Shown here one piece after another: positions 1 to 44,625 of a stretch of DNA of 51,408 bases; position 1 is the stretch's first letter; every line of letters begins with the position of its first letter. Source of the stretch: a virus. The stretch covers positions 1 through 51,408 of the IMG/VR virus record IMGVR_UViG_3300048586_000893; one strand, 5' to 3'. The notes under the pieces were generated by a model. The model did not search any database. It worked only from the letters and a program-made list of their open reading frames with translations, and was not told where the DNA came from. Both the position numbers and the translations under genes were made by a program.

Positions 1-183
1 ATGACGCGTTCCGCAGACCAGAAGCCCGCCCCGCCGAAAGCCTCCGGCCCGGGCCGCAGCCCGCCGCGGCAGCCGGCGCGCGGGCCGGCCAACACCGAGA
101 CCTTCGGCCGCTTCCTGCGCAATCTGGCCCGGCTGGAAGGCGGTGCGGGTCGCGTCGGCAAGGCCGGGGAGCGGGCGCGATGA
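1..183 (+). CDS. small GTA-cluster ORF upstream of the prohead protease
   Basis: This 60-residue protein is rich in Pro, Arg and Ala in its first half and ends in a short amphipathic stretch (ETFGRFLRNLARLEGG). It overlaps the protease start by 4 nt (ATGA), so it is probably translated in the same operon. GTA clusters commonly have a small uncharacterised ORF between portal (g3) and protease (g4), and this occupies that slot. I recognise no domain. The window opens exactly on this ATG, so its upstream RBS cannot be seen and the true start could lie further left. Confidence 0.6.
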   Translation: MTRSADQKPAPPKASGPGRSPPRQPARGPANTETFGRFLRNLARLEGGAGRVGKAGERAR

Positions 184-701
184 GGGCGCTTGCTCACGCC
201 GGCCCCTGCGACCGCGAGTCGAAGTTCCTGCCGCTGCCGCCGGCGCGCATCAGCCTCGACGGGCTGTTCGAGGGCTATGCCAGCCTGTTCGGCATCGCCG
301 ATCTCGGCAAGGACATCGTCGAGCGCGGCGCCTTTCGCGAGAGTCTGGTGCGGCGCGGGCCGGGCGGGGTCAAACTGCTCTGGCAGCATGATCCCGCCGA
401 GCCGATCGGCCGCTGGCTCGCGCTCACCGAGGATACGCGCGGGCTTTTCGTGCGCGGCCAGCTCTCGCTCGCCGTCGCCCGCGCCCGCGAGATCCACGCC
501 CTCATGCGCGAAGGGGCTGTCGATGGGCTCTCGATCGGCTTCCGTTCCGAGCGCGCCCGCACCGAGCCGCGCAGCGGCCTGCGCCGGCTCGAGCGGATCG
601 ACCTCTGGGAGATCTCGATCGTCACCTTCCCGATGCTGCCGCAGGCCCGGATCTCCGCCGTCAAGGCGCTGCGCAGCGCATCTGCCTTCGCTCACGCCTG
701 A
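180..701 (+). CDS. GTA HK97-family prohead protease (g4-like)
   Basis: A 173-residue S78/U35-type prohead protease, which matures the capsid shell by trimming the major capsid protein and scaffold. Visible family marks are the EGYASLFG start of the fold, the His in LLWQHDP (H70) and the Ser in GLSIGFR (S118), the expected catalytic pair, followed by the LWEISIVTFPML strand. Its length is normal for the family. The ATG overlaps the preceding stop. The capsid gene follows after 25 nt, the canonical GTA order. Confidence 0.93.
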   Translation: MRALAHAGPCDRESKFLPLPPARISLDGLFEGYASLFGIADLGKDIVERGAFRESLVRRGPGGVKLLWQHDPAEPIGRWLALTEDTRGLFVRGQLSLAVARAREIHALMREGAVDGLSIGFRSERARTEPRSGLRRLERIDLWEISIVTFPMLPQARISAVKALRSASAFAHA

Positions 702-726
702 AACAACTTTTCCCGAAGGAGAGACC

Positions 727-1971
727 ATGACCACTGTCAACCACGCTCCCGAGAGCAAGGCCGCCGGCGCCGATCTGTCGCTGGCCTTCGACGACCTGCG
801 CTACACGCTGGAGAGCTACCGCATCAGCAATGACGAGCGCCTGGCGCAGATCGAGAGCCGCCGCGGCGTCGACCCGCTGACCGAGGAGAAGATAGCGCGC
901 ATCGACACCGCGCTCGACGACGCGACGCGCCGTCTCGACCGCCTGACGCTCGACCGCAACCGCCCGGCGCTCGGCCGCGACGAGCCGCGCGACCCGCTGG
1001 TCGGCGAGCACAAGGCCGCTTTCGCCGCCTATATCCGCAGCGGCGAGGCCGGTGGGCTGAAGCGTCTCGAGGGCAAGGCGCTCTCGGTCGGTTCGGGTCC
1101 CGATGGCGGCTATCTCGCGCCCTCCAGCGTCGAGAGCGAGATCCTGCGGCGCCTCTCCAGCGTCTCGCCGATCCGGAGTCTGGCCACCGTCAGGACTATC
1201 TCGTCGGGCACCTACAAGAAGGCGTTCTCGACCACGGGGCCGGCCTCGGGCTGGGTCGGCGAGACCGCGGCGCGCCCGCAGACCGGCTCGCCCACCCTGG
1301 CGGAGCTGAGCTTTCCGGCGATGGAGCTTTACGCCATGCCGGCGGCGACGCAGACCCTGCTCGATGACGCCATCGTCAACATCGACCAGTGGATCGCGGA
1401 AGAGGTCGAGAGCGCCTTCGCCGAGCAGGAGGGCGCGGCTTTCGTGAGCGGTGACGGCATCGACAAGCCCAAGGGCTTCCTGGCCTATCCGACGGTGGCG
1501 GAGGCGAGCTGGAGCTGGGGCAATATTGGCGTGCTCAACACCGGCGTCGCCGGCGGTTTCGCGGCCGCCAACCCCTCCGACATCCTGGTCGACCTCGTCT
1601 ATGCGCTGAAGGCCGGCTACCGCCAGAACGCGTCCTTCGTGATGAACCGCAAGACGCAGGCCCAGCTGCGCAAGTTCAAGGACTCGACCGGCCAGTATCT
1701 CTGGCAGCCGCCGGCGTCGGTGGGGGCGCCCGCCACGCTGATGGGCTTCCCGCTGGTCGAGGCGGAGGACATGCCCAACATCGCCAACAACGCGGTCGCA
1801 CTCGCCTTCGGCGACTTCCGCCGCGGCTATCTGGTCGTCGACCGGGCGGGCGTCCGCATCCTGCGCGATCCCTATTCCGCCAAGCCCTATGTGCTGTTCT
1901 ACACGACCAAGCGGGTCGGCGGCGGCGTTCAGGACTTCGCCGCGATCAAGGGGCTGAAATTCGCCGCCTGA
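727..1971 (+). CDS. GTA HK97-fold major capsid protein (g5-like)
   Basis: The 414-residue major capsid protein of the GTA particle. The start at 727 is supported by the upstream AAGGAGAG; the frame is open further left but in the shadow of the protease. It has the usual plan: an N-terminal acidic/basic helical delta region (to about residue 110), then the HK97 fold beginning near KALSVGSGPDGGYL and ending KRVGGGVQDFAAIKGLKFA. The LSVGSGPDGGYL segment is where the protease normally cuts. It lies directly behind the protease and upstream of the connector genes, although two antisense genes separate it from g6. Confidence 0.94.
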   Translation: MTTVNHAPESKAAGADLSLAFDDLRYTLESYRISNDERLAQIESRRGVDPLTEEKIARIDTALDDATRRLDRLTLDRNRPALGRDEPRDPLVGEHKAAFAAYIRSGEAGGLKRLEGKALSVGSGPDGGYLAPSSVESEILRRLSSVSPIRSLATVRTISSGTYKKAFSTTGPASGWVGETAARPQTGSPTLAELSFPAMELYAMPAATQTLLDDAIVNIDQWIAEEVESAFAEQEGAAFVSGDGIDKPKGFLAYPTVAEASWSWGNIGVLNTGVAGGFAAANPSDILVDLVYALKAGYRQNASFVMNRKTQAQLRKFKDSTGQYLWQPPASVGAPATLMGFPLVEAEDMPNIANNAVALAFGDFRRGYLVVDRAGVRILRDPYSAKPYVLFYTTKRVGGGVQDFAAIKGLKFAA

Positions 1972-2014
1972 GCAGGTTCCGGCAACTGAGGGCAGGATGC
2001 GATGCGTGCTGCCC

Positions 2015-2854
2015 TCAGCGCATCGGCCACCAGCTGTAGCCGGCGGGTGCCTGCCGCTCGGCGACGCGCGCAGGAGTTCCCATCGCCAGCAGCCGGGCGG
2101 CCGAATCCGTGATCCAGGCACGGTGCTCACCGATAGGCGTGATCGCGGTGAAGCCGCCGCAGATCCGGCGTTCCCGCGTGCTCAGCGGGCCGCTGGACCA
2201 GCTGACGATGCCGACGAGGTCCCGGGAGCGGACGTCACCGCGCAGCACGGGGCCTCCGGAATCGCCCCGGCAAGCCCCGGCGCCCGGTGTCTCGCCCTTG
2301 GCTTCGGCGTCAACGGCGACTTTGACGGTGTTCTGCGTCGTGTAGTTGCCGGCATTGACCAGCCGCGTCTCGCGCAGGCGCCGGGCTGTGTTCCTGTTGG
2401 TCTCGACCGAGAGGCCGAAGCCGGCCATCGTCACGACCTCGCCCTGCCACAGGCTGCCGCCCAGCGTGACGGGCTGGATGTCGGATGGCAGAGGGGCGGC
2501 CAGGCGAATCATGGCGAGATCGGCGCCGGGCTGTGTGCGCGGCGTGGTGCCGGGCACGAAGCTGGGATGCGGCAGCACCGCGATGACGGCATGCCGCCGC
2601 GGGCGGAAGCGCTGATCGAGACTGACGACGCTGACCGAACCACCGCCCATCAGGCAATGCGCAGCCGTCAGCACCAGCTCGGGTGCGATCGCGGCGCCGG
2701 AGCAGAGTTCACCCCGGCTGGTCTCGACCCGCAGCGTCGAGGCCCGCGCGCCCCGGACATCCTGCGAGGGCGTGCCGCCGACCACAGCGAGCGCGGGCGT
2801 GCTGCCCGCCAGCACTGCGGTGACGAGAGCGAAGATGAAACGGCGCGAGGTCAT
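2015..2854 (-). CDS. secreted trypsin-like serine protease (S1), first of a pair
   Basis: A 279-residue chymotrypsin-fold protease. It has an N-terminal signal peptide (hydrophobic segment about residues 5-23, ending ALA), then VVGG, the typical start of the mature S1 domain. The triad is visible as His in LTAAHC, Asp in GADLAMIRL and Ser in GACRGDSGGPVL. Cysteines flank His and Ser as in the family. It probably acts in the periplasm or outside the cell. It is antisense between GTA g5 and g6, tandem with a second paralogue. Its substrate is unknown; a role in GTA release, uptake or maturation is only a positional inference. Confidence 0.9.
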   Translation of the reverse strand: MTSRRFIFALVTAVLAGSTPALAVVGGTPSQDVRGARASTLRVETSRGELCSGAAIAPELVLTAAHCLMGGGSVSVVSLDQRFRPRRHAVIAVLPHPSFVPGTTPRTQPGADLAMIRLAAPLPSDIQPVTLGGSLWQGEVVTMAGFGLSVETNRNTARRLRETRLVNAGNYTTQNTVKVAVDAEAKGETPGAGACRGDSGGPVLRGDVRSRDLVGIVSWSSGPLSTRERRICGGFTAITPIGEHRAWITDSAARLLAMGTPARVAERQAPAGYSWWPMR

Positions 2855-2920
2855 GGTGCGAACCGGCTGCGTGGACGCCTTTCAATCTAGGGGCTGCGGC
2901 GCGCCAGTCCAGCTTTTCCC

Positions 2921-3694
2921 TCAGCGGTCCGATCGCCAGAGGGCTCGCTCCGACCATCCGGCGAGCGTGCCGTCGATCCAGCCACGCTGGGGCGCCACGA
3001 GCACGCCCTGGCTGAGCAGGCCGCAACTGCGACCGGACGGGCCGGTCGACCAACTCGTGACGGCGACGACGCCCTGGCCGTCGCCAGACGTCATCGGCCC
3101 GCCGGAATCGCCCTGGCAGGCTCCGGGCCCGCTGCGCTTGCCGGCGCCCGCGGCATCCGCCGCCCAGAGCAGGATCTTGCCGGGGCCATAGGGCTCGACG
3201 ACGGAGAGCGTCGCGGAGCGGTAGACGCCGGTGCTGCGCGCCTCGCCCTCGCGCGAGACACCGTAACCGGCCAGCACGACCGGCGCGCCGCTGCGCGGCG
3301 GCACGCCATCGACCAGGCTGGCTGGCGCGAAGCGGCCGGGCAGAGGCTGCGCGAGCCGCAGCAGCGCGAGATCGACCGAGCGCTGCCGGGCTGCGACGGC
3401 ATTGGCCCGGAATTCGGGATGGAGCGCGACCGCGGCCGGTGGCAGCAGGACGGGGTCGCCTCCCTCCTTCCAGTGGATGCGCAACTCGGTGCCGCCGGCA
3501 GCGCAGTGGGCGGCCGTCAGCACGCTGCGTGGCGACAGCACGATGCCGGTGCAGACGCCGCCCCGCGCATTGAGAACCATCAGCGTCGAGCCCGCGAGCG
3601 GGCCCCCGTCGCGACCGCCGACGACGGCTCCTGCCGGCGCGGCCGCCAGGGTGCCGGCGAGAACGCCGAGGCCGATCTGAACTCCGACGCGCAT
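2921..3694 (-). CDS. secreted trypsin-like serine protease (S1), second of a pair
   Basis: A 257-residue paralogue of the protease just downstream. The start at 3694 is chosen because AGGAGGAG lies just before it on the minus strand; a longer frame to 3742 has no such site. A signal peptide (about residues 1-23, ending AGA) precedes VVGG. The triad residues are His in LTAAHC, Asp in VDLALLRL and Ser in GACQGDSGGPM. The two genes run the same way with about 66 nt between them, so they are probably co-transcribed, against the GTA operon. The divergent gap to g6 (3695-3765) must hold promoters for the pair and possibly for g6 onward. Confidence 0.9.
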   Translation of the reverse strand: MRVGVQIGLGVLAGTLAAAPAGAVVGGRDGGPLAGSTLMVLNARGGVCTGIVLSPRSVLTAAHCAAGGTELRIHWKEGGDPVLLPPAAVALHPEFRANAVAARQRSVDLALLRLAQPLPGRFAPASLVDGVPPRSGAPVVLAGYGVSREGEARSTGVYRSATLSVVEPYGPGKILLWAADAAGAGKRSGPGACQGDSGGPMTSGDGQGVVAVTSWSTGPSGRSCGLLSQGVLVAPQRGWIDGTLAGWSERALWRSDR

Positions 3695-3765
3695 CGCGCT
3701 CCTCCTGCTGGGAGGGGTTCGATAGCGCGTCGCCTCCCGCAATTGAACCCCGCATCGGAGCGACC

Positions 3766-4335
3766 ATGACGCCGCTTGCCCTGACTCCGCCGGCTCAGGA
3801 GCCGGTCTCGCTGGCGGAAGCCCGCGCCTTCCTGCGGCTCGACCAGACGGAGGAGGACGATCTCCTCACCACCCTGATCACGGCGGCGCGGTTGATGGTG
3901 GAGGCGGCCTCGGGCCGTCTCCTCGTCGATCAGGCCTGGCGGATCGTGCTCGATCGCTGGCCGGACGGTGGCGAAATCCGTCTGCCACTCTCGCCCATTG
4001 GCGCTGTCACGGCGGCCCGGGTCTATGACGCGCTGGGCGTAGCCCAGCCGGTCGCCGCGACCGCTCTGGAACTCGACAGGGCGGCGGATCCGCCCGTGCT
4101 GCGCATCGTCGGCGAGGTGCCCGAGATCGGCAGACTCCGTGGTGCGATCGAGATCGACCTCGTCGCCGGCTTCGGGCCCACCGCCCAATCGGTGCCCGCG
4201 CTGCTGCGCCAGGCGGTGCTGCGGCTGGCGGCACGCTGGTTCGAGCATCGTGGCGACGTCGTCGGACGTGATGCCGAGGCTTTGCCGACGGAGATCATGG
4301 CGCTGATCGCGCCCTTCCGCCGCGCGAGGCTCTGA
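3766..4335 (+). CDS. GTA head-tail connector (g6-like, phiE125 gp8 family)
   Basis: A 189-residue head-tail connector of the gp6/gp8 type. The N-terminus (EPVSLAEARAFLRLDQTEEDDLLTTLITAARLMVEAASGR) is the characteristic helical start of this adaptor family, followed by a beta-rich centre (WPDGGEIRLPLSPIGAVTAARVYD) and a C-terminal helix. It joins the portal ring to the tail-proximal connectors. It is immediately followed by g7 and g8 homologues. The start ATG has a GGAGCG site just upstream. Confidence 0.9.
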   Translation: MTPLALTPPAQEPVSLAEARAFLRLDQTEEDDLLTTLITAARLMVEAASGRLLVDQAWRIVLDRWPDGGEIRLPLSPIGAVTAARVYDALGVAQPVAATALELDRAADPPVLRIVGEVPEIGRLRGAIEIDLVAGFGPTAQSVPALLRQAVLRLAARWFEHRGDVVGRDAEALPTEIMALIAPFRRARL

Positions 4336-4338
4336 ACC

Positions 4339-4683
4339 ATGGCGTCCAACCATGCAAACAGCGGCGATGTCGGCGCGCTGCGCCGGCGGCTCGCGCTCGA
4401 GGCGCCGATCGTAACCCCCGACGGGCTGGGAGGCACGACCCAGGCCTTCACGACCGTCGCCGCTCTCTGGGCGCAGGTCGAATGGCTGTCGGGGACCGAG
4501 CAATGGCGTCGAGGGCGCCCCGAGCAGAGCGCGACCCACCGCGTGACGCTGCGCTGGCGCGCCGGTGTCGATGCCGGCCAGCGCCTGCGCGACGGCGACC
4601 ATCTCTACGACATCCGCGCCGTCGCCGATCCTGATGGCGACCGGCGGCGTCTCGTCTGCCTGGTGCGGGAGATCGGGCCATGA
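4339..4683 (+). CDS. GTA head closure / head-tail adaptor (g7-like)
   Basis: A 114-residue SPP1 gp16-like head closure protein. The pattern GALRRRLALEAPIVTPDGLGGTTQAFTTVAALWAQVEWLSGTE, then THRVTLRWRAGVDAGQRLRDGDHLYDIRAV, is typical of head-tail adaptors in GTAs and siphophages. It plugs the connector after DNA packaging. It is separated from g6 by 3 nt and overlaps g8 by 4 nt, indicating tight operon structure. Confidence 0.9.
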   Translation: MASNHANSGDVGALRRRLALEAPIVTPDGLGGTTQAFTTVAALWAQVEWLSGTEQWRRGRPEQSATHRVTLRWRAGVDAGQRLRDGDHLYDIRAVADPDGDRRRLVCLVREIGP

Positions 4684-5090
4684 GCGACGCATCTCTCCCC
4701 CTCCGCGCGGCCGTGCAGGCCGCGCTAGAAGCCGATACCGGCCTGACCGCCCTCATCGGCCCGGACCGCATCCATGACGAGGCGCCGCGTGGCGCGAGCG
4801 GCGTCTATGTCGTGCATGGCGAGGTCGAGGCCCGCGACTGGTCGACCGGCACCGAACGCGGCTGCGAGCAGGATTTCGCCCTGACCGTCTGGGCCGGTGA
4901 AACCGGCTCCGCGCGGCTGGCGCTGGAAACGGCGGCCCGCATTGCGACCGTCCTCGACGAAGCGACACCGGCACTGGCCGGGCACCGGCTCGTCAATCTG
5001 CGCTGGCGCTCGACGCGCCTCGCCCGGGACAGCGCCACCGGGCTCGCCTTCGTCGCGCTCCGGTTCCGGGCCGTGACGGAAGCGCTCTGA
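4680..5090 (+). CDS. GTA tail completion protein, DUF3168 (g8-like)
   Basis: A 136-residue DUF3168 protein (tail terminator/completion, HK97 gp10-like). The N-terminal helix LRAAVQAALEADTGLTALIG, then RIHDEAPRGASGVYVVHGEVEARDW, and the C-terminal strand GLAFVALRFRAVTEAL match the family. It overlaps g7 by 4 nt (ATGA). It sits at the head-tail joint of the particle. Confidence 0.9.
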   Translation: MSDASLPLRAAVQAALEADTGLTALIGPDRIHDEAPRGASGVYVVHGEVEARDWSTGTERGCEQDFALTVWAGETGSARLALETAARIATVLDEATPALAGHRLVNLRWRSTRLARDSATGLAFVALRFRAVTEAL

Positions 5091-5120
5091 ATTCAACCAC
5101 ACGGGATGATGGAGGGCCGG

Positions 5121-5531
5121 ATGTCGGCACAGAAGGGCAAGGATCTGCTGCTCAAGGCGGCGGATGCCGGGGGTGTCTTCATGACCGTCGCGGGTCTGCG
5201 GGCGCGGCAGATCGCGTTCAACGCCGAGGCGGTCGACGTAACGCATTCGGAATCGGCCGGGCGTTGGCGCGAGCTGCTGGCCGGGGCCGGCATGCGCCGC
5301 GCCGCGATCAGCGGGGCGGGGATCTTCAAGGACGAGGCCTCGGACGCGCTGGTCCGCCAGATCTTCTTCGATGGCGACATTCGCAACTGGCAGGTCGTCG
5401 TGCCCGATTTCGGCACGGTGACGGGCCCGTTTCAACTCTCCAGCCTCGAATATCGAGGCGATCACGCCGGCGAGGTGACCTTCGATCTCTCGCTTGAATC
5501 CGCCGGTCAGCTGACGTTCGCGGCGCTGTGA
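5121..5531 (+). CDS. GTA phage major tail protein, TP901-1 family (g9-like)
   Basis: A 136-residue major tail (tube) protein. The start at 5121 is set by GGAGG six bases upstream; an ATG at 5106 would put the Shine-Dalgarno inside the gene. The sequence AQKGKDLLLKAADAGGVFMTVAGLRARQIAFNAEAVDVTHSES and the ending GAGIFKDEASDALVRQIFFDG...YRGDHAGEVTFDLSLESAGQLTF are classic for the TP901-1 tail protein of GTAs. It polymerises into the tail tube. Confidence 0.93.
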   Translation: MSAQKGKDLLLKAADAGGVFMTVAGLRARQIAFNAEAVDVTHSESAGRWRELLAGAGMRRAAISGAGIFKDEASDALVRQIFFDGDIRNWQVVVPDFGTVTGPFQLSSLEYRGDHAGEVTFDLSLESAGQLTFAAL

Positions 5532-5542
5532 GGAGAAGGGCG

Positions 5543-5911
5543 ATGGTCAACCGATACCGGGGCGAGACCGCCCTGATGATCGACGGGCGGCCGCTGCCGA
5601 TGCGCCTGACGCTGGGCGCGCTCGCCGAACTCGAACAGGCCTTCGCCGTCGACAGCCTGCCTGCGCTCGGCGAACGCTTCGCCACGGGGCGGCTCTCGGC
5701 GCGCGACGTGACACGCATCCTCGCGGCGGGGCTGCGGGGAGCCGGCAGCCCGCTCAGCGAGCAGGAGGTCGGGGAGATGGCCTTCGACGGCGGGCTGAAC
5801 GGAGCCATCCGTGCGGCCATCACGCTGCTCGAGGCGACCTTCGGGGAGGTCGCGGACCGTACGGCCACACCGGAGCCCGATATCCGCCCTCCGCCGCCGC
5901 CGGCGGCCTGA
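5543..5911 (+). CDS. GTA family protein g10-like (tail assembly)
   Basis: A 122-residue protein of the GTA g10 type. MVNRYRGETALMIDGRPLPMRLTLGALAELEQAF and the helix GRLSARDVTRILAAGLRGAG are typical of this conserved GTA family, which sits between major tail protein and tape measure and is thought to help tail assembly. The start is 5543 because AGGAGAAGG directly precedes it; the alternative GTG at 5528 overlaps the previous stop. The Pro-rich tail (IRPPPPPAA) runs into the next small gene. Confidence 0.85.
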   Translation: MVNRYRGETALMIDGRPLPMRLTLGALAELEQAFAVDSLPALGERFATGRLSARDVTRILAAGLRGAGSPLSEQEVGEMAFDGGLNGAIRAAITLLEATFGEVADRTATPEPDIRPPPPPAA

Positions 5912-5946
5912 CGCCCCCGGCGGCGCCCTTTCCCTGGGCCGAGATC

Positions 5947-6111
5947 ATGGCCTTCGGGCTCGGCCGTCTCGGCTGGGCGCCCGACATCTTCTGGGCCGCG
6001 ACTCCCCGCGAGATCGCGGCGGCCTTGAAAGCCCACCGGTACGGCAATGACGCCGGAGCCCCCGCGCGCGACGCGCTTCTGGCGCTGATGGCGGCCCATC
6101 CCGATGCCTGA
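5947..6111 (+). CDS. small GTA tail assembly chaperone (rcc01693-like)
   Basis: This short ORF is in a different frame from g10. It reads AFGLGRLGWAPDIFWAATPREIAAALKAHRYG, the signature of the small tail-assembly chaperone found between g10 and g11 in GTA clusters. From the ATG at 5947 it gives 54 residues, but the family usually begins PFPW a few residues before, and PFPWAEI is encoded in frame just upstream. The real start is therefore probably a non-ATG codon further left, overlapping g10, or the product arises by recoding. Function is by position and family only. Confidence 0.75.
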   Translation: MAFGLGRLGWAPDIFWAATPREIAAALKAHRYGNDAGAPARDALLALMAAHPDA

Positions 6112-6147
6112 CCGGGTTCGCCACCACTCCCTTCAGAAAGGTCCGCC

Positions 6148-6741
6148 ATGGCCGACGACGAGATCGACCTCTCCTCCCGCCTCTCCGATTTGCGGACACT
6201 GGGCTCACTGACCCAGAGCCTCGACAAATCCGCCGCGAGCTTCGGCAAATCGATCACCAATGCCTTCGCCAAGGGCATCATTGAGGGCAAGCGCTTCGAC
6301 GAGGTGCTGCGCAGCGTCGGGCGATCCATCACGGCAAACCTGCTCAAATCGGCGCTGAAACCGCTGCAGAGCACGCTGTCGAACCTGCTGGGCAGCGGAT
6401 TGAAGGGCCTCGCCGGGGCCTTTGGCGGATTCAATCTCGGGGGCGTGGCGTCCAGCGCTCCCGTCGCGCCCTTCGCCGACGGAGGGGTCATCGCCTCGCC
6501 GGCCTATTTCCCGCTCGGCCGCGGTCTCGGCCTGATGGGCGAGCGCGGCGCGGAGGCGATCCTGCCGCTGGCGCGCGGCACCGACGGCAAGCTCGGCGTG
6601 CGCTCCTCCGGCGAGACGCGGCGACCGCTCAACGTCGTCGTCCAGGTCTCGACGCCCGACGCCGACAGTTTCCGCCGCTCCGAGGCGCAACTCTCCGCCG
6701 CCATCGCACGGGCGGTGGCGCGCGGCAATCGCGCACTCTGA
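6148..6741 (+). CDS. GTA tail tape measure protein (g11-like)
   Basis: A 197-residue short tape measure protein, about the length seen in GTAs and much shorter than in siphophages. The N-terminus is helical (SDLRTLGSLTQSLDKSAASFGKSITNAFAKGIIEGKRFDEVLRSVGRSI). The Gly-rich middle and the C-terminal motif GGVIASPAYFPLGRGLGLMGERGAEAILPLARG are diagnostic. It fixes tail length during assembly. An AAAGGTCC site precedes the ATG. Confidence 0.92.
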   Translation: MADDEIDLSSRLSDLRTLGSLTQSLDKSAASFGKSITNAFAKGIIEGKRFDEVLRSVGRSITANLLKSALKPLQSTLSNLLGSGLKGLAGAFGGFNLGGVASSAPVAPFADGGVIASPAYFPLGRGLGLMGERGAEAILPLARGTDGKLGVRSSGETRRPLNVVVQVSTPDADSFRRSEAQLSAAIARAVARGNRAL

Positions 6742-6752
6742 GGGAGGGGGCG

Positions 6753-7391
6753 ATGAGCGATTTTCACGAGATCCGCTTTCCGACCGCCATTGCGCGCGGG
6801 GCCCGTGGCGGCCCGGAGCGGCTGACGCAGATCGTCGCGCTGGCCTCGGGCAGGGAGCGACGCAACAGCCGCTGGGCCCATTCCCGCCGCCGCTACGACG
6901 CCGGCTGCGGCATCCGCACACTCGATGCGCTCGCTGAAGTCGTCGCCTTTTTCGAGGAGCGGCGCGGCCGCCTCTACGGCTTCCGCTGGCGCGATCCGCT
7001 CGACTGGAGGAGCTGCGCGCCCTCCGCCACGCCTGCTGCGACGGACCAGGCCATCGGCACCGGCGACGGGCTCACCCGCGGTTTCGCCCTGTGCAAGCAC
7101 TACGGTAGCGGCATCGCGACCTATCGCCGGGCGATCACCAAGCCTGTCGCGGAGGAGGTGCTGGTCGCGGTCGGCGGGGTGGTCGTCGATCCGGCGCATT
7201 TCGCCTGCGATGCCGCAACCGGCCTCGTGACCTTCGCCAGCGGCCATGCACCGCCGCCCGGCGCCGCCGTCACCGCGGGGTTTCAGTTCGACGTGCCGGT
7301 GCGCTTCGACACCGACGCGATCGAGGTCGATCTCTCGGCCTTCGAGGCCGGCGAGATCCCGCGCATCCCCGTCGTCGAGATCATTCCCTGA
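6753..7391 (+). CDS. GTA distal tail protein, DUF2460 (g12-like)
   Basis: A 212-residue DUF2460/TIGR02217 protein. FHEIRFPTAIARGARGGPERLTQIVALASGRERRNSRWAHSRRRYDAG is the hallmark N-terminus, and RRGRLYGFRWRDPLDWRS the hallmark middle. It forms part of the distal tail/baseplate hub of the GTA particle and is always followed by DUF2163, as here. GGAGGGGG lies just upstream of the ATG. Confidence 0.94.
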   Translation: MSDFHEIRFPTAIARGARGGPERLTQIVALASGRERRNSRWAHSRRRYDAGCGIRTLDALAEVVAFFEERRGRLYGFRWRDPLDWRSCAPSATPAATDQAIGTGDGLTRGFALCKHYGSGIATYRRAITKPVAEEVLVAVGGVVVDPAHFACDAATGLVTFASGHAPPPGAAVTAGFQFDVPVRFDTDAIEVDLSAFEAGEIPRIPVVEIIP

Positions 7392-7404
7392 AGCGAGCCC
7401 TGTC

Positions 7405-8130
7405 ATGCGCGACATCCCCGAAGCCCTGGCGGAGCATCTCGCCCAGGGAGCGACGACCCTGTGCCGCTGCTGGAGTCTGACCCGTCGCGACGGCGTCGTG
7501 CTCGGCTTCACCGATCATGACACGAGCCTCGTGTTCGATGGCGTGACCTTCGCTGCCGAGACGGGACTGGAGGCCGCGGAGACCGCCGCCGAACTCGGCT
7601 TCGCGATCGGCGGCGGCGAGGTTGCCGGCGCCTTTGCCGCCACCGGCCTGAACGAGGCCGATCTCGCCAGGGGGCTCTACGACGATGCCCGGGTTGCGGT
7701 CTGGCTGGTCAACTGGGCCGATCCCGACCAGCGGCTGCTGCTGGAGACAGGCTTTATCGGCGAGATCAGACGCGGGGATGGCGCCTTCACCGCAGAGGTG
7801 AGGGGCCTCGCCAAGGCCTTCGACGAGGAGCGCGGCCGGCTCTATACACGCTCCTGCTCGGCCGATCTCGGCGATGTGCGCTGCGGGCTGACGATCGTGC
7901 CGTCGCCCGCGCTGGTGAGCGCGACGGATGGGCGGCTCGGCTTCACCGCCGCAGCGCTGGCCGGTTTCCCCGATGGCCATTTCACCGGTGGGCGGGTCGT
8001 CTTCACAGGCGGAGCCAATGCCGGCTTCGCCACCGAGGTGATGCGCCATGGCGCCAATGGCGACACAGCGTCGCTTCAGCTCTGGCAGGCGCCGCCGGCG
8101 CGGATCGTGACGGGCGACGCTTTTCTGTGA
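7405..8130 (+). pseudogene. GTA hub protein DUF2163 (g13-like), 3' end lost
   Basis: The 241 remaining residues (MRDIPEALAEHLAQGATTLCRCWSLTRRDGVVLGFTDHD...) are a textbook DUF2163/TIGR02218 N-terminus and centre, including the Cys-containing RLYTRSCSADLGDVRCG segment. Full-length members continue past the GDAF motif into a Cys-rich AGCDK...C block and a GFPH-P-G ending. Here the frame stops right after GDAF with Leu-TGA. The final TGTGA belongs to the left end of the Mu-like element, so the gene looks cut by insertion at about 8125/8126. The next GTA genes (NlpC/P60 peptidase, large tail protein) would lie beyond the right prophage end. Confidence 0.85.
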
Positions 8131-8132
8131 AA

Positions 8133-8263
8133 CGAACAATCAAATGGCAATGACGGGGCGAAGGCGGGATTAGCCGGGATCAGCCGGGATCAGCCGGAAA
8201 GTCGTTGCATTTCAAGGCTCTCGCCGGGGCGGGGCGGCCAACTTAGTGCCATTTGATTGTTCG
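8133..8263. repeat. perfect 17-bp inverted repeat near the left end
   Basis: CGAACAATCAAATGGCA occurs at 8133-8149 and its exact reverse complement TGCCATTTGATTGTTCG at 8247-8263, 97 bp apart. The first copy starts 7 bp from the inferred terminal TG. Mu ends carry several transposase-binding sites of mixed orientation, and these could be L1- and L2-type sites. A 131-bp miniature inverted-repeat element is the alternative, but no matching target duplication flanks the arms (TGAAA left, CAGGA right). Confidence 0.8.
8161..8200. repeat. 10-bp tandem repeat, four units
   Basis: Four consecutive 10-bp units read AAGGCGGGAT, TAGCCGGGAT, CAGCCGGGAT, CAGCCGGAAA. The period is close to one helical turn, so a protein bound to each unit would lie on one face of the DNA. 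It lies between the two arms of the 17-bp inverted repeat. A role as an accessory binding or bending site in the transposition complex is inference. Confidence 0.6.
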
Positions 8264-10674: not shown

Positions 10675-11340
10675 TCAGAGCTGTCCGCCTGACCAGACAA
10701 CCTTGCCGATCACCCTTAAAGATTCGGCTTCGGGCGCCTCGACTTTTTCGGGTGGGTATTGTTCGTTGTCGGAGAGCAGATTGATTGCGCCCTGCCACCC
10801 AAAGGCGATCCGTTTGATCCGCAAGCCATTGCCGACGACGACGACATAGACGCCCTCGTCCTTGGCTCGAGTGAAGCTGCTGTCCACCAGCACCAGGTCC
10901 CCGTCCTTGATAGTCGGAATCATGCTGTCGCCGCGAGCGACCATGAACCGCGCGTGTTTCTCCCGGACACCCAGCTGGCGCAGCAGCGATCGAGGGAACG
11001 GCATTACCTCCGTGTCCCGCGCGGCCTCGTTCTCATAGCCCGGACCTGCAGAAACATAGACATCCAGAATCGGGATAGCCGCAGCTTCCACTCGCGTCTG
11101 GGTTCCTGACTGTGATGCACTGATTCCTGCATCCTCTGAGCCATCGCCGCCGTCCAACAGCTCACCGAGCGGGACCGACAGCGCCCGAGCGAGGCGCACG
11201 GCGATCGTCACCTTGGGCTCAGCTGTTCCCGCCAGATAGGTGTTGAGCGTCGAAAGCGGCACTCCCGCGGCTTCCGAGACCGCCTTGGGGCCGCCCGAAC
11301 GCTGAACCGCAGCCTTGAGCCGCGCCGCGAACCCTCGCAT
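10675..11340 (-). CDS. phage repressor: XRE HTH plus S24 (LexA-like) peptidase
   Basis: A 221-residue repressor. The N-terminal HTH (about residues 5-55: LKAAVQRSGGPKAVSEAAGVPLSTLNTYLAG) binds operators. A linker with the likely Ala98-Gly99 cleavage site (VSAGPG) follows. The C-terminal S24 domain carries Ser139 in ARGDSMIPTI and Lys176 in GLRIKRIAF, the autocleavage dyad. The fold implies RecA-stimulated self-cleavage and SOS induction, unlike the Mu c repressor itself. It is transcribed divergently from ner. The ATG at 11340 is the only good start; the open frame further left overlaps ner antisense. Confidence 0.92.
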   Translation of the reverse strand: MRGFAARLKAAVQRSGGPKAVSEAAGVPLSTLNTYLAGTAEPKVTIAVRLARALSVPLGELLDGGDGSEDAGISASQSGTQTRVEAAAIPILDVYVSAGPGYENEAARDTEVMPFPRSLLRQLGVREKHARFMVARGDSMIPTIKDGDLVLVDSSFTRAKDEGVYVVVVGNGLRIKRIAFGWQGAINLLSDNEQYPPEKVEAPEAESLRVIGKVVWSGGQL

Positions 11341-11467
11341 CGCATCATTCACGTTCCTGCGGCCTCGCTTCCAGAAAGCCAAGTCAGAAATCCAGTTTCT
11401 CGCTTGACTGACATCTAGGAACCTGTATCGTTCAGTCACACAACAGGCAGTTTTATCTACGGTTAAC
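11341..11467. promoter_or_regulatory. early switch region with operators and rightward promoter
   Basis: This 127-bp gap separates divergent repressor and ner. A good rightward promoter candidate is TTGACT (11404-11409), a 16-bp spacer, then TATCGT (11426-11431). Related words CCAAGTCAG, CTTGACTGA and TTCAGTCAC surround it, suggesting repressor or Ner half-sites overlapping the -35 region and start point. The leftward repressor promoter is not clear by eye. Confidence 0.65.
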
Positions 11468-11770
11468 ATGAGCCCCATCAGCGAACGAGTCCTCTCGGCC
11501 TGGCATCCGGCCGACATCATCGCCGCCGTCCGGAAAAAGGGGACGTCGCTGCAACGCCTGTCGCGGGAACACGGCTTCAACATCACCACGATGAACAAGG
11601 CGGTGCGGCAGTGCTTCCCGGCCTGCCACGCGCTGATCGCCGGCGTCATCGGCGTGCCGCGCCAGCAGATCTGGCCGCAATTCTACGACCGGGATGGGCA
11701 CCGGCTGTCCCAGCGCGAGCGTCGACGCCGAGAGAAGGCGAGCGAGATCCTGCAGAAAAGGGCGGCCTGA
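11468..11770 (+). CDS. ner: Ner-family early regulator
   Basis: A 100-residue Ner/Nlp-type DNA-binding protein. WHPADIIAAVRKKGTSLQRLSREHGFNITTMNKAVRQCFPACHALIAGVIGVPRQQIWPQFYDRDG matches the family, including the IWP-Y-DRDG ending. It is the first gene of the rightward early operon. In Mu, Ner represses both the early and repressor promoters to shape the lytic switch. The C-terminal tail is basic. Its stop overlaps the next start. Confidence 0.92.
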   Translation: MSPISERVLSAWHPADIIAAVRKKGTSLQRLSREHGFNITTMNKAVRQCFPACHALIAGVIGVPRQQIWPQFYDRDGHRLSQRERRRREKASEILQKRAA

Positions 11771-12672
11771 TGCGCGACGTCCTCAACCTGTCGAGCGCGC
11801 CAGCGCTACCCGACCACGAGATCGAGATCGAGATTGCCGCCGTCGACGTGGAGGATCGGCTTCGCCTGGTCGACCGCGACAAGGTCGAGATGCTCGCGGC
11901 TTCGATCGCCGAGAGCTATCTCCACCAGGCCATCGCCGTGGCGACGACGCCCGGCGCCGGCAACCGCTACGTCCTGGTCGATGGCGAGCACCGGCTGGAA
12001 GCGCACAAGCTGCTCGGCCGCGCGACGATCAAGGCGGTCATCCGCGATCTAACGCCCGCCGAGCGGGCGAAGCACGAGATCCACGCGAACCTGATCCGCA
12101 ACGAGCTCGACGCACTCGACCGAACAATCTTCGTTGGCAAGCTGGCTGATCTCTTCGAGGCCGAGAACGCCGATGCGAAGAACGGCGGCGACCGCAGGTC
12201 GAGAAAGTGGCGCGAGAAAAATCAGTTGGCCAACTTGGCCAACTGGTCGGGCTTCAACAAGGAGGCGGCTCGCCGGACGGGCCTCGCAGAGCGCTCGATC
12301 CGCCGCTCGCGCGAACTCGCCGCCTCTCTCTCCCCCGAAGCCGTCGCCCTGATCCGAGGCACGAAGCTCGCCGACAACCAGGCGCAGCTGCAGGCGCTGG
12401 CGGCGCTCGATCCCGCCGAACAGGTCACGGCCGCGCGCGAAGTCGCCGAGGGGCGTGCCAGCAACGTCGCCAAGGCCCGCGTCAGCGCCGGCCTGGTGCC
12501 CGCAGGCGGCGCCGTCCGGCCTGAGGATCAGCCGCTGGTCAAGCTGGAGGCCCTGCTGGCGCGGCTATCGCCCGGTCAGCTGCGCGACGCGCTCGCCATG
12601 GTCCAGGCCAAGGTCGCGGCCGCCGATGCCGCCGCCAAGCCGGTCCGCGCCAAGAAGGGCGGTGCGGCATGA
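11770..12672 (+). CDS. ParB-like nuclease/partition domain protein
   Basis: A 300-residue ParB/RepB/Spo0J-type protein. The N-terminal domain (about residues 15-110) has the ParB boxes around DRDKVEMLAASIAESYLHQAIAV and RYVLVDGEHRLEAHKLLGRATIKAVI. A helical region with an HTH-like segment (FNKEAARRTGLAERSIRRSREL) follows, then an Ala/Lys-rich tail. It sits between ner and transposase A, a place occupied by such genes in some alphaproteobacterial Mu-like phages. It overlaps ner by 1 nt and the next gene by 4 nt. A regulatory or DNA-organising role is inferred. Confidence 0.85.
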   Translation: MRDVLNLSSAPALPDHEIEIEIAAVDVEDRLRLVDRDKVEMLAASIAESYLHQAIAVATTPGAGNRYVLVDGEHRLEAHKLLGRATIKAVIRDLTPAERAKHEIHANLIRNELDALDRTIFVGKLADLFEAENADAKNGGDRRSRKWREKNQLANLANWSGFNKEAARRTGLAERSIRRSRELAASLSPEAVALIRGTKLADNQAQLQALAALDPAEQVTAAREVAEGRASNVAKARVSAGLVPAGGAVRPEDQPLVKLEALLARLSPGQLRDALAMVQAKVAAADAAAKPVRAKKGGAA

Positions 12673-13118: not shown

Positions 13119-13171
13119 CCCTGCCTCCTCCGATGGGTTGGTTCGCAGCTCCCATCATGGAGAAGGCACGT

Positions 13172-13208
13172 GCGGCGGGGTAGCCACCCCCCTGGCCAGC
13201 CCCGCCGC
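13172..13208 (+). promoter_or_regulatory. strong hairpin in the transposase A leader
   Basis: GCGGCGGGG (13172-13180) pairs perfectly with CCCCGCCGC (13200-13208). Inside the loop GCCA and TGGC can extend the stem around a CCCCCC tip. It ends 24 bases before the A start codon, where no clear Shine-Dalgarno is visible. It could limit A translation or transcription. Confidence 0.55.
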
Positions 13209-13232
13209 GCGTCGCCCTTTCGGGGTCGCCCC

Positions 13233-15434
13233 ATGAAAATGTGGCTGACCCCCGCCGAGATCGCCGATCTGGCCCTGCCGGGCCTGCCGACGACCAAGCG
13301 CAACGTCAATCTGCTCGCCGAGCGAGAGGATTGGGCGCGCTTCGCCGGCCTGTCCCGGCCGCGGGCCGGGCGTGGCGGCGGCGTCGAGTATCATGTCAAT
13401 ATGCTGCCGGTCGCGGCTCGCGCTGCCTATTTCGGCGCCCATGCGCCGGTCGAGAGCGCCGCGACGGGCGCTGCGGAGACGATCCAGGCGGCGCCGGAGC
13501 CGGCCGAGGGCACGGGGCGAGCGGCGACGCTGCAACTGGATGCGCGGCTCGCCGTGCTCGGCGCCCTGAAGGCTTTCACCCGCTCGTCGTCACTGAAGCA
13601 GACGGTCGCCGTCGGCCATTTCGTCGACCTCTACAATCTCGGCCGCGTTGACGTGCCGGCCTGGGCGAGCCAGATCATCGGGCGCCTGTCGACCCGCACA
13701 CTCCTGCGCTGGCTCGCGGCGGCCCGTGAGGGCGAGACTGAGCGCTTGGCGGTCGACAAGGGCGCCGCGCGCCGCGGCCAGGGCGTGCTCGACGCCGCCT
13801 TCGACGGCGAGATCAAGCATTTCGCCCTCGCGGTCCATTCCTTCAACGAGCTCTACACGGCCCGGCAGATCTACGAGACGATCCGCGCCGAGTTCGGCGC
13901 GCGGCTGGCGGCCGAAGGTCTGGCGCTGCCGGTCCAGCGGGCGTTCGAGATGCGCTTCAAGGCCTGGAGGCAGGAGCACGCTGCCGGCCTCCTGCGGATG
14001 ATGGACCCCGACGGCTACCGTTCGAAGATGCGGACCTCGGGCTCCTGCGCTCATCTCGTGCCGCATCTCAACGCGCTCTGGCAGATCGATGCTTCGCCGG
14101 TGGACGCGCTCTGTGTCGACGGCCGGCATTCGATCTATGTCTGCATCGATATCTGGTCGCGCCGCATGTGCCTCTTCGTCTCGAAGACGCCGCGTTCCGA
14201 GGCCGTCCAGATGCTCATGCGCAAGGCGATCCTCGCCTGGGGCGTGCCCGATGCCGTGAAGACGGATAACGGCTCCGACTTCGTCGCCCGCGCCACGGTG
14301 CGCCTCTTCGCCAAGCTGCAGATCGAGGCCATCCGATCCCATGCCTTCTCGCCTTGGGAAAAGGGCGTGGTCGAGCGCAACATCCGCACCTTCCAGACCG
14401 ATTGCGCGCGCATGCTGCCCGGCTTCGTCGGCCACAGCGTCGCCCATCGCAAGAAGATCGAGGGGCGCAAGGCCTTCGCGGCCCGTCTCGGCCAGAGCGA
14501 CAGCGACGCCTTCAACGTCACCCTCACCGGCGAGGAACTGCAGGCGATCGTCGACCGCTGGTCGAGCGAGATCTTCGCCCAGCGCGCGCATGGCGGCATC
14601 GGCAATCTGACACCCTTCGCCCGCGCCGCATCCTCGACAAGGGCCATCCGCACCGTCGACGCCGATGCGCTGGCCACGCTGCTGATGCCGGCGCCCGATG
14701 CCGAGGGCCTTCGCACCGTCGGCAAGAACGGTGTTCGGATCGGGGGCTTCCACTATCTGGCGCCGGATTGCCTGCCGGGTGATCGCGTCTTCGTGCGGCT
14801 CGATCCGCATGACGCCGGCACGGTGTGGCTCTTCGACGAGACGGGCGACCGCTTCATCGGCCGTGCGCTCAATCCCGAGCGCGCCGGCGTCGACCCGGCC
14901 GAGCTGGTGGCACGCACCCGCGCCGCCCAAAAGGCGGCGATCGATGCGCAGACGGCGCAGATCACCCGGCAGGTCAGGAAGGGTGTCACGCAGCGCACCG
15001 TGCTGGAGGGCCGGCTCAAGGACGCCGCCGCGGCTGCGGGCAACCTGGTCGCCTTCCCGCCGCGCTCCGAGATCCACACGACGCCCGCGCTCGATGCCGG
15101 TCTGGAGATCGCGGCCCTGCGCCGGGGCGAGGCGCCTGCGGCCGCGCCGCTCACTCCAGAGGCGGCGAAGGTCCACGCGCAGCTGCTGGCCGAGATGGAG
15201 GATGCGCCGACCCCGGCGTCCGCGGCCCGCCGCCCCTCGAATGTCCGCCCGCTGCGCGATCACGAGACACCGCAGCAGCGCTACCGGCGCTGGCTCGATC
15301 TGCATGCCCGGCTGGAGGCCGGCGAGCCGATCTCTCCCGAACAGGCGGCCTTCTATGGCGGCTTCGCCAACAGCAGCGAGAAGCGCGGCCTGGACGGGCT
15401 CTACGAGGAATTTGGCGAGGCGGCGTTGCGTTAG
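13233..15434 (+). CDS. A: Mu A-like DDE transposase
   Basis: A 733-residue transposase, longer than Mu A (663). The N-terminal Mu-type HTH is at about residues 4-66 (WLTPAEIADLALPGLPTTKRNV...GGGVEYHVNMLP). The RNase-H-fold catalytic core (about 275-400) has Asp286 (WQIDASP), Asp345 (KTDNGSDF) and Glu381 (GVVERNIRTF). A beta-barrel-like region (GGFHYLAPDCLPGDRVFVRLDPHD) and a basic C-terminal tail follow, the latter expected to contact B. The start ATG at 13233 is chosen because the HTH begins right after it. It carries out replicative transposition and integration. Confidence 0.96.
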   Translation: MKMWLTPAEIADLALPGLPTTKRNVNLLAEREDWARFAGLSRPRAGRGGGVEYHVNMLPVAARAAYFGAHAPVESAATGAAETIQAAPEPAEGTGRAATLQLDARLAVLGALKAFTRSSSLKQTVAVGHFVDLYNLGRVDVPAWASQIIGRLSTRTLLRWLAAAREGETERLAVDKGAARRGQGVLDAAFDGEIKHFALAVHSFNELYTARQIYETIRAEFGARLAAEGLALPVQRAFEMRFKAWRQEHAAGLLRMMDPDGYRSKMRTSGSCAHLVPHLNALWQIDASPVDALCVDGRHSIYVCIDIWSRRMCLFVSKTPRSEAVQMLMRKAILAWGVPDAVKTDNGSDFVARATVRLFAKLQIEAIRSHAFSPWEKGVVERNIRTFQTDCARMLPGFVGHSVAHRKKIEGRKAFAARLGQSDSDAFNVTLTGEELQAIVDRWSSEIFAQRAHGGIGNLTPFARAASSTRAIRTVDADALATLLMPAPDAEGLRTVGKNGVRIGGFHYLAPDCLPGDRVFVRLDPHDAGTVWLFDETGDRFIGRALNPERAGVDPAELVARTRAAQKAAIDAQTAQITRQVRKGVTQRTVLEGRLKDAAAAAGNLVAFPPRSEIHTTPALDAGLEIAALRRGEAPAAAPLTPEAAKVHAQLLAEMEDAPTPASAARRPSNVRPLRDHETPQQRYRRWLDLHARLEAGEPISPEQAAFYGGFANSSEKRGLDGLYEEFGEAALR

Positions 15435-15491: not shown

Positions 15492-16265
15492 ATGAACGCA
15501 ATGACACCTGAAATCAAGAGTGACGGCTTCCAGCGCCCGGCTTCGCTCGCCCTGCTGAAGAACGTCGTCCACATGGTCGGGCTCGTGCAGCGCCTCAACG
15601 ATCGCGGCGCCCATATGCCAGGCTTCGGCGTTGTCCATGGCTATAGCGGCTACGGCAAGACCTATTCGGCCGTCTTCGCCCAGAACAAGACGGGCGGCCC
15701 GCGTATCGAGATCGGCGACAGCTGGACCAAGAAGACGCTGGTGCGCGCAATCCTCAAGGAACTCGGCGTGCGCGAGCCCAAAGGCACGGTCGCCGATCTG
15801 ACGGAACAGGCGATCATCCGCCTGGCCGAGCCCAACCACCCGCCGCTCTTCATCGACGAGGCCGACAAGCTCGTCGACAAGGGCATGATCGAGCTGGTGC
15901 GCGAGATCCAGGAGGGCGCGCAGATCCCGATCGTGCTGATCGGCGAAGAGCTGCTGCCGCAGAAGCTGATGAAGATCGAGCGCGTCCACAACCGCGTGCT
16001 CGACTGGGTCGCCGCACAGCCCTGCGACCTGGAGGACACCCGCAAGCTCGCGCAGATGTTCTGCCCGCATCTGGCGATCGACGATCCGACGCTGGAGGCG
16101 ATGCGCAACGCCTCCGAGGGGCGTGCCCGGCGCATCGTTACCAACCTCTACCGCGCCCGCGAATTCGCAGCGACGCGGGGCCTGAAGGCGCTCGAAGCCG
16201 GCGGCCTCGTCCCCGAATTCTTCACCGGCAACCCGCCGGCGCGCTCGTCCCGCAGGAGCGCGTGA
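15492..16265 (+). CDS. B: Mu B-like AAA+ target-selection ATPase
   Basis: A 257-residue AAA+ ATPase of the MuB/TniB group. Walker A is GYSGYGKT (residues 50-57) and Walker B is PLFIDEAD (D122, E123). LIGEELLPQKL resembles the sensor-I region, and a C-terminal helical lid (EAMRNASEGRARRIVTNLYRAREFA) follows. In Mu, B coats target DNA and activates A, directing insertion away from self. It follows A after 57 bp holding the hairpin, and AGGAACAG serves as RBS. It overlaps the next gene. Confidence 0.95.
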   Translation: MNAMTPEIKSDGFQRPASLALLKNVVHMVGLVQRLNDRGAHMPGFGVVHGYSGYGKTYSAVFAQNKTGGPRIEIGDSWTKKTLVRAILKELGVREPKGTVADLTEQAIIRLAEPNHPPLFIDEADKLVDKGMIELVREIQEGAQIPIVLIGEELLPQKLMKIERVHNRVLDWVAAQPCDLEDTRKLAQMFCPHLAIDDPTLEAMRNASEGRARRIVTNLYRAREFAATRGLKALEAGGLVPEFFTGNPPARSSRRSA

Positions 16266-17486: not shown

Positions 17487-17924
17487 ATGCAGACCGGCAC
17501 CTCCCAGCCCAAACCGCTCTCCGGCGATCTGCGCGAGATCCGCGACCTCTTTCGCCGCTATGTCGGCGCCCATCACCGGCCGACGATCGACGCCTGCCGT
17601 GAACTCTATGTCGCGCTCAACGTCATGGCCGAGAAGGCCGACGTGCTGGAGGACCGCGCTGCGGTCGCCGACGAACTCGAGGCGGTGGCGCGCGATCTCG
17701 ACCTGGTCGCGAGTGCCCAGGCTTCGCCGACGCTTCAAGAGGCGTTGAAGCGCGACCAGCGCGCCCTGCAGGCGCAGCTCGATCGCGAGGACGGAGGCAG
17801 CGATGGCGGCCTCTCCCGCCTCTCGGCGGCGATCGGCGACAGCAACGTCGTCACCTTCCCGGTGGTGCCACGGCCGGCGATCTCGCGGGTCGATTGTCAA
17901 GACGAAGGCGGGGACGCGGCATGA
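17487..17924 (+). CDS. early helical protein of unknown function
   Basis: A 145-residue protein, largely helical and charged (GDLREIRDLFRRYVGAHHRPTIDACRELYVALNVMAEKADVLEDRAAVADELEAVARDLDLVA), with a possible coiled coil over residues 50-100 and a variable C-terminus. It starts 3 nt after the previous stop and overlaps the next gene by 4 nt. No domain recognised. Confidence 0.7.
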   Translation: MQTGTSQPKPLSGDLREIRDLFRRYVGAHHRPTIDACRELYVALNVMAEKADVLEDRAAVADELEAVARDLDLVASAQASPTLQEALKRDQRALQAQLDREDGGSDGGLSRLSAAIGDSNVVTFPVVPRPAISRVDCQDEGGDAA

Positions 17925-18208
17925 GCTGGCTGCTCGACGACCAGCGCCAGATCGCGGCGAGCCATCGGCAGCGCCGCGCGCTCGATGGCCCGACGCTCGA
18001 CGAGCGCGCCGACGCGATCCTCGCCTCCGTCGAGAGCCCGACCGGTTTCGGCCTCGACATGGATCTGCGCCACCTCGCCGGCCAGGTGAAGCGTCAACGG
18101 GCGCTGGCTCGCGATGGCATCCGCGACGGCCGCTTCCTGCTCCATCTGGAGCACGCGCTGCGCGATCTCGCGGTGCGGGCGCCCGTGCTGCCGGGAACGA
18201 CGTCATGA
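17921..18208 (+). CDS. small early protein of unknown function
   Basis: A 95-residue basic, helical protein (MSWLLDDQRQIAASHRQRRALDGPTLDERADAILASV...DLRHLAGQVKRQRALARDGIRDGRFLLHLEHALRDLAV). It overlaps both neighbours by 4 nt (ATGA type), which is the best evidence that it is translated. No family recognised. Confidence 0.68.
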   Translation: MSWLLDDQRQIAASHRQRRALDGPTLDERADAILASVESPTGFGLDMDLRHLAGQVKRQRALARDGIRDGRFLLHLEHALRDLAVRAPVLPGTTS

Positions 18209-18732
18209 GCGAGCGGCATGTCCCCTTCGATACGATCGTCCACGCCGTGGCCGCGGTGGGGGGCCGCTCACGCTTCGAGATCATGTCCGGCGACCGGGGC
18301 AACTCGGACCGGACGCGACTGCGCCATCTCGCCTGGTGGCTGGCCCGCAAGCTCACCCCGCTCTCGCTGGAGGCGATCGGCCAGGCTTCGCGCGGCCGCG
18401 ACCACACCACCGTCCTCAACGGCGTGCGCGCGATCGATACGCTGCGCGAGAAGAGCGAGATCTTCCGCCAGGAGAGCGACGCCCTGCTCGGCACCCTGAT
18501 CGCGCTGGAACGCCAAGGGATGCTGCAGCTCGCGACGATCGCCGATCCGTTGGCCACCGCCCGGCGCATTCTCGCGGCGCCAGAGCGGGAGGCCGTCCGC
18601 GTGCCCGTCATCGACATCGTCGCGATGGCGCGCCTGCTCGTCGAGACCTTCGGCGACGGCACCGAGCCGCCGCCTGACGACCCTTCCGAACCCGCCTCAG
18701 AACCCGTCCAGGAGACGCCTCATGCAGCCTGA
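18205..18732 (+). CDS. stand-alone DnaA domain IV (oriC-box-binding) protein
   Basis: A 175-residue protein whose residues about 30-100 match the C-terminal DNA-binding domain of DnaA: RTRLRHLAWWLARKLTPLSLEAIGQASRGRDHTTVLNGVRAIDTLREKSE, with the DHTTV signature at 66-70. The AAA+ part of DnaA is absent, so it can bind DnaA-box-like DNA but not form an initiator filament. It overlaps both neighbours in the early operon. Likely roles are recruiting or interfering with host replication, or regulating a DnaA-box promoter. The acidic Pro-rich tail is unremarkable. Confidence 0.88.
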   Translation: MSERHVPFDTIVHAVAAVGGRSRFEIMSGDRGNSDRTRLRHLAWWLARKLTPLSLEAIGQASRGRDHTTVLNGVRAIDTLREKSEIFRQESDALLGTLIALERQGMLQLATIADPLATARRILAAPEREAVRVPVIDIVAMARLLVETFGDGTEPPPDDPSEPASEPVQETPHAA

Positions 18733-31676: not shown

Positions 31677-31711
31677 GTCTGCGTCGGGCCGCGCCCGTCA
31701 GATTGGCGGGG

Positions 31712-40746: not shown

Positions 40747-40759
40747 GGATCGAACGCCC

Positions 40760-44521: not shown

Positions 44522-44605
44522 CGCTCCCTACGTCCTAAGGTCTCGGCGCATTTCGTTTGCGCGGATCACTCTGCAAACTCCGATGATGTAGGCAAAGGGA
44601 ATATG

Positions 44606-44625
44606 AGGCCCCGACCTCGGGGCCT
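44606..44625 (+). terminator. hairpin AGGCCCCG-N4-CGGGGCCT, copy 3
   Basis: A perfect 8-bp stem with loop ACCT, followed by GTTCCGCC, stands 34 bp before gp46 and right beside the promoter side of the antisense gene. It is the same element as at 24134 and 31657. A GCGCG-N7-CGCGC-like dyad follows just before the gp46 start. Confidence 0.68.

Follow-up and report, generated by a model that had tools for sequence, protein, structure and literature searches.

The window analysed here is the whole of a 51,408-nucleotide stretch, identical with an IMG/VR provirus record of exactly 51408 bp that closes at a gene stop codon, and it comes from a Bosea strain in which the hub gene of the gene transfer agent (GTA), g13, is broken by a Mu-like phage. 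Features described below lie on the plus strand unless noted otherwise. The left flank (1..8125) is host DNA that carries GTA genes g4 to g13 in colinear order, open except for g13, and positions 1-8117 align colinearly at 80.9% nucleotide identity with the corresponding Bosea sp. AAP35 cluster (L006). Genes g4 to g12 are each full length, and profile matches in the flank include HK97 capsid, gp6/gp7/gp17-like proteins, tail tube, RcGTA_tape and DUF2460.

The gene that follows g12 (7405..8130) was identified by both its position and its family match as g13, the baseplate hub of the DUF2163/TIGR02218 family, and it is truncated. Its reading frame runs from an ATG at 7405 to a TGA at 8130 and encodes 241 amino acids, with the C-terminus ...VTGDAFL*. 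The junction codons, GAC GCT TTT C|TG TGA, place the last host base at 8125 and the first prophage base at 8126 (TGTGAAACGAACAATC), with the final leucine and the stop codon supplied by the phage left end. The initial annotation, which had g13 following its family up to GDAF and then stopping in a phage-derived TGTGA, is confirmed by this ORF end and by the profile matches. The TIGR02218 match covers only positions 1-216 of 266 (E 5.5e-61) and the PF09356 match only 1-47 of 80, such that the C-terminal (BR0599) domain with GCDK...C is incomplete, while PF09931, the attachment domain at the N-terminus, is present in full. The hub structure of RcGTA (6tba/6teh, 296 aa) can be aligned to g13 up to residue 243. 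Intact Bosea homologues have 293 aa and read GDxF-xVTPGCDKSFATCQAKF... after the truncation point; compared with them, the hub encoded in the window is short of 52 residues and two of four conserved cysteines.

Gene content of the prophage

The phage left end, TGTGAAACGAACAATCAAATGGCA (8126..8149), borders different host DNA in about ten other records. Within it, at 8133-8149, is a 17-bp subterminal motif that recurs in inverted orientation at 8247..8263 on the minus strand, a probable MuA binding site; two copies were found in 0 of 100 shuffles. Ends of the TG...CA type with repeated subterminal transposase sites were found for the left end in the window and for the right end in relatives.

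The left part of the prophage encodes an S24/CI-like repressor on the minus strand (10675..11649; PF00717, phrog_4), a ParB-N-domain protein with an uncertain start codon (11611..12672; PF02195, phrog_3264), a MuA-type DDE transposase (13170..15434; Mu-transpos_C, HTH_Tnp_Mu_1, rve, phrog_310), a MuB-type AAA ATPase of the kind that serves target capture (15492..16265; AAA_22/TniB, phrog_296 DNA transposition protein), and a protein with a DnaA-type HTH (17803..18732; PF08299 E 2e-13; PDB 1j1v). A DUF3164 gene lies between the last of these and the terminase large subunit (26836..28560; phrog_2). The structural genes that follow are a Mu-type portal (28560..30185; PF06074, phrog_113), a Mu F-like protein (30342..31070; PF04233), a Mu I-like protease (31703..32806; PF10123), a major head protein (33294..34193; phrog_371), a contractile tail sheath (35844..37304; phrog_165), and the tape measure with baseplate hub and wedge genes (38320..46844; phrog_794, 184, 177, 203). 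The element is placed among the Mu-like phages by its MuA-type transposase and MuB-type ATPase, and by a portal, F and I proteins and sheath of Mu type.

Near the right end are a D12 (Dam-like) methyltransferase (49310..50107; PF02086) and an SLFN/AlbA_2 protein (50104..51408; PF04326), at whose stop codon the record ends, before the phage right end. These two genes, together with a minus-strand HNH-like gene with a CxxC...H motif, make up cargo at 48298-51408 that possibly functions in defence or counter-defence. The prophage is nearly complete: a full-length relative (IMGVR 3300002461) has about 44.4 kb between its two ends, and by that measure the window probably lacks about 1 kb of phage DNA, the right end among it. 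A search of the phage-end DNA against INPHARED gave no match, and the nearest MuA proteins in sequenced phage records, those of Rhodobacter phage RC1 and Rhodovulum phage RS1, are distant at 38% amino acid identity.

Recurrent insertion in g13

Four records contain phages of this family in g13, with breakpoints that all fall within 14 bp and with both orientations represented. The host sequence in the window ends ...GGGCGACGCTTTTC and continues into a left end, whereas in record 3300036521 it ends ...GGGCGATCCCTTCA and continues into a right end, as it does in the Bosea MAG G001 (...GGGCGATAC) and in a fourth record (3300048586; ...GATCCGGCCG), where the break is 13 bp earlier. The closest relative of the window phage is the one in 3300036521 (MuA 91%), and since the two occupy the same g13 codon position in opposite orientations, they represent separate insertion events.

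Both junctions are present in G001. In contig L005, g13 halts at ...GGGCGATAC and is followed by the phage right end TGTAGCGCGAACAATC, and in L223 the phage left end adjoins GATACGTTTCTCGCGACGCCCGGCTGCGACAAG..., which is the missing 3' part of g13. The order is therefore g13 5' half, GATAC, phage right end ... left end, GATAC, g13 3' half. The initial annotation had proposed an empty-site check, and this relative provides it, as joining the flanks with a single GATAC restores an intact 293-aa g13 frame. Five relatives have verified 5-bp target duplications (GATAC, CTACG, CGCGC, CCAGC, CAACG), and for the window a duplication of TTTTC is predicted, with its left copy at 8121..8125. The right junction of the window prophage should read ...GATTGTTCGCGCTACA, TTTTC, the rest of g13 (xGCDK...), and g14/g15. 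The earlier proposal that transposition into g13 is the simplest reading is thus supported with respect to transposition, but it understated the case, as the site is a recurrent target.

Other insertion sites

Without reference to the GTA, IMG/VR, 67 Bosea genomes and 397 genomes of the family were scanned for phage ends and MuA, and the flanks were then read; G001 came up through a search for g13 in genomes. The 16-base end pattern also matched unrelated viral contigs, and those without the continuation of the motif were discarded (matches in L214, L226 and L227 were treated as chance). Four loci account for 18 of the 20 located insertions, namely g13, the serC leader, the beginning of the GTA cluster and the 3' end of a SleB-like gene. 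The other two are in G058 and G022:C34.

The most frequently occupied locus is a SleB-like gene for a cell-wall hydrolase (PF07486; ...VFYKLRPGQT*), whose 3' end has seven insertions (G037, G022, G016, G055, G129, 3300038557, 2852435927), mostly no more than 10 bp from the stop codon and one of the seven at 25 bp; it took the family-wide scan to find the one in G129. Among 16 Bosea genomes in which this stop was examined, six carry a phage end or eroded remnant by a strict count, the seventh insertion being record 2852435927; a looser count of 7/16 takes in G019, which has an empty site matching the flank of an inserted record. In four Bosea genome contigs (L262, L263, L265, L267), eroded phage ends lie right after the SleB-like stop, which in some cases has changed to TAG, and these are old insertions at the same site.

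Four insertions are at the GTA cluster start, between a LOG-family gene and g1/g2. Two of them (G017 and G066) are 2 bp apart, in opposite orientations, inside a strong hairpin, and those in G016 and 3300002461 are about 60 and 200 bp further on. The hairpin between the LOG gene and g1 (L277 ~1530-1570, L278 2125-2160) has z scores of -3.8 to -5.3, with the phages in its loop, and it may be a GTA leader terminator comparable to the GTA-cluster terminator in Caulobacter. A promoter reading by eye at the GTA leader (TTGACA...TAGAGAT) was dropped, as a sigma-70 consensus scan gave no site. The serC leader has three insertions (G027, G038, 3300026284), 9-12 bp from CTTGACT.

IMG/VR is biased toward GTA flanks, as the viral look of GTA genes spares them when host DNA is trimmed away; only the genome sample is fair. 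In the genomes alone there are 13 insertions, found by phage ends or MuA: five at the SleB-like gene, three at the GTA start, two at serC, one in g13 and two elsewhere, which puts 11 of 13 at the four loci and 4 of 13 in the GTA cluster. Under random insertion, the chance that any pair among 18 insertions would fall within 14 bp is about 8e-4, and the chance of 6/18 in the 15-kb cluster is about 7e-12 (5/17, about 9e-10). With 18 of 20 insertions at four loci and four in g13 within 14 bp, insertion is non-random. Positions, orientations and MuA lineages differ, which indicates separate events and not one inherited insertion. On the MuA tree, phages with the same target locus do not group together (12 changes of target label, as low in 148 of 200 shuffles), so the idea that target choice tracks phage lineage is unsupported, and g13 targeting needs at least two origins.

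In two contigs (L124:1590-1660, L249:11163-11207), two ends of the family stand face to face, separated by no more than 5 or 7 bp (right end - cgccc - left end). Either this is a circular junction, or the prophages are tandem or adjacent, an arrangement that Mu cis-immunity would not lead one to expect.

How sites might be chosen

Taken together, these findings make it likely that a Mu-like prophage transposed into Bosea g13, that its family inserts mostly at a few loci, probably through target capture, and that GTA tails would be lost as a result. The phage would have entered g13 through DDE transposition driven by MuA and MuB, which duplicates 5 bp of the target. For the recurrence, the most likely cause is capture of the target complex of MuA and MuB, during lysogenisation, by a protein or DNA structure at those loci, which would in effect give the phage several loose attachment sites.

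Several local features were looked for at the insertion sites. Gibbs sampling within 60 bp of seven two-sided sites, a comparison of low power, found a common target motif no better than controls did; AT-rich targets were not supported (0.32 near the sites, 0.37 farther out); and no IHF-like boxes were found at the sites. The Mu duplication consensus NYSRN is a misfit with GATAC, CTACG, CGCGC and CAACG. No TniQ/TnsD/TnsF-like target selector was found among the phage proteins scanned with Pfam, a set that covered part of the small ORFs. We infer that capture is guided by something bound at the loci, not by local sequence alone. The GTA activators GafY and GafA bind GTA promoters (PMC6363796, PMC11150451), and GafA carries a DnaA-like domain (PMC6363796); the phage DnaA-HTH protein resembles them in domain type, which offers a possible lead, for targeting of the GTA start only.

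Comparison with known elements

The family shares with phage Mu its MuA/MuB proteins, TG...CA ends, 5-bp duplication, and a head/portal/I/F and contractile tail module, but differs in its confined sites, end motif, S24 repressor and ParB-like protein. Integration hot spots of Mu-like phages are already known from Citromicrobium (PMC12486242) and Pseudomonas (PMC5977238), so near-random targeting is not a defining feature of Mu-like phages. The Citromicrobium phages phiA and phiB are also Mu-like, with 5-bp duplications and confined lysogenic integration: that of phiA is confined to a 40-bp zone in 24 strains and that of phiB to six hot spots (PMC12486242). There, however, the host gene is called hypothetical, and GTA-like genes show neutral preference in replicative transposition (PMC12486242); the duplications fit NYSRN, which those of the Bosea family do not, and for the Bosea phages the same hot spots return in different species, with GTA genes among them. 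Transposable phages Ab30 and 2P1 of Pseudomonas aeruginosa have hot spots a few bp wide that are used in both orientations (PMC5977238), resembling the Bosea family in this respect. In Ab30, the hot spots account for about 5% of events, and a 35-bp REP-like consensus is located 55-61 bp away from them (PMC5977238), whereas no shared motif was found for the Bosea phages and nearly all of their established prophages are at hot spots.

Tn7-like elements with TnsD/TnsF, such as Tn6022 at comM (PMC10293859), also insert at or just after the end of a conserved gene; their TnsC is a homologue of MuB, and comM, like the GTA, has a gene-exchange function. The Bosea element differs in being a phage, in having no detected TniQ/TnsD/TnsF-like protein, and in an insertion position that varies by about 30 bp. 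In Methylobacterium sp. E-045 (L028:10756-17020), a Tn7-like transposon (TnsA, TnsB, TnsC, TniQ+HTH) breaks g13 right after GCDK, a few codons past the Mu-like hot spot. Recurrent Tn7-like insertion in g13 was rejected, as the closest TniQ relatives, sought in 397 genomes of the order, offered no second case.

We found no published report in the open literature of GTA genes as integration sites of Mu-like phages, and their recurrent use, as well as the conservation of sites across species of a genus and beyond, was not found described. With a family that comes back to the same few bp in different species, target capture of the Mu type can be tested directly, and it has natural attachment sites.

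Alternative explanations

Phage Mu is the textbook random inserter, with nearly random integration, and the anatomy of the window is otherwise that of a Mu-like prophage, both of which would suit ordinary random transposition with a single chance landing in g13. This is contradicted by the clustering in g13 and at the four loci: the near-random target choice of classic Mu is not seen in this family, and we consider a chance landing very unlikely. Still less credible is a metagenome assembly chimera of GTA and phage DNA; the record is a trimmed IMG/VR provirus, but four independent records share this type of junction, the phage termini are exact, and in one genome both copies of the target duplication were verified. 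The truncated hub might still work and leave the GTA functional, as its attachment domain PF09931 is whole, but this is highly improbable in view of the missing residues and cysteines, the loss of any transcription into g14-g15, and the retention of the C-terminal part by all intact Bosea homologues.

A further explanation is broad insertion followed by selection of GTA-silenced survivors, where the lysogen avoids GTA-mediated lysis and curing by GTA-borne homologous DNA, as was proposed for elements that break comM (PMC10293859). In keeping with it, insertions recur both in the GTA control region and in g13, and at either place they are predicted to switch the GTA off; the remainder of the GTA cluster is intact, and the break made in g13 by the Methylobacterium Tn7-like element is at almost the same position, with the comM-directed elements as precedent (PMC10293859). 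However, if GTA loss were what is selected, insertions anywhere in about 14 kb would serve and not just those in 14 bp of g13, and the Methylobacterium insertion was not repeated in the closest TniQ relatives from 397 genomes of the order. Because the SleB-like and serC sites, which are not GTA genes, are used equally or more, the sites and not GTA loss would seem to drive the pattern, and we judge selection an unlikely cause. Capture of the transposition complex at a few loci is thus the reading we favour.

Consequences for the GTA

With the hub short of its C-terminal part, it can soundly be predicted from the gene that GTA tail assembly is lost in the window strain. Genes g14-g15 are also expected to be severed from g1-g13 transcription, so that GTA tails should fail, and insertions at the GTA start should part the operon from its control region. 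Insertion of a Mu-like phage offers a simple route to loss of GTA production in Alphaproteobacteria, and with two of the four sites in the GTA cluster, a live phage and a domesticated phage appear in direct, repeated conflict. A more tentative idea, which we think doubtful, is that the family evolved gene-directed lysogenic integration at sites that include the GTA control region and hub gene, lysogenisation switching the GTA off, as a counterpart of the comM elements. If true, GTA-directed integration would be the phage counterpart of comM-directed elements, shielding the prophage from GTA-driven lysis or replacement. A different kind of interruption was seen in a Breoghania MAG (L062), where a stop at about codon 208 interrupts g13 and the frame beyond it stays open, either a nonsense mutation or a sequencing error.
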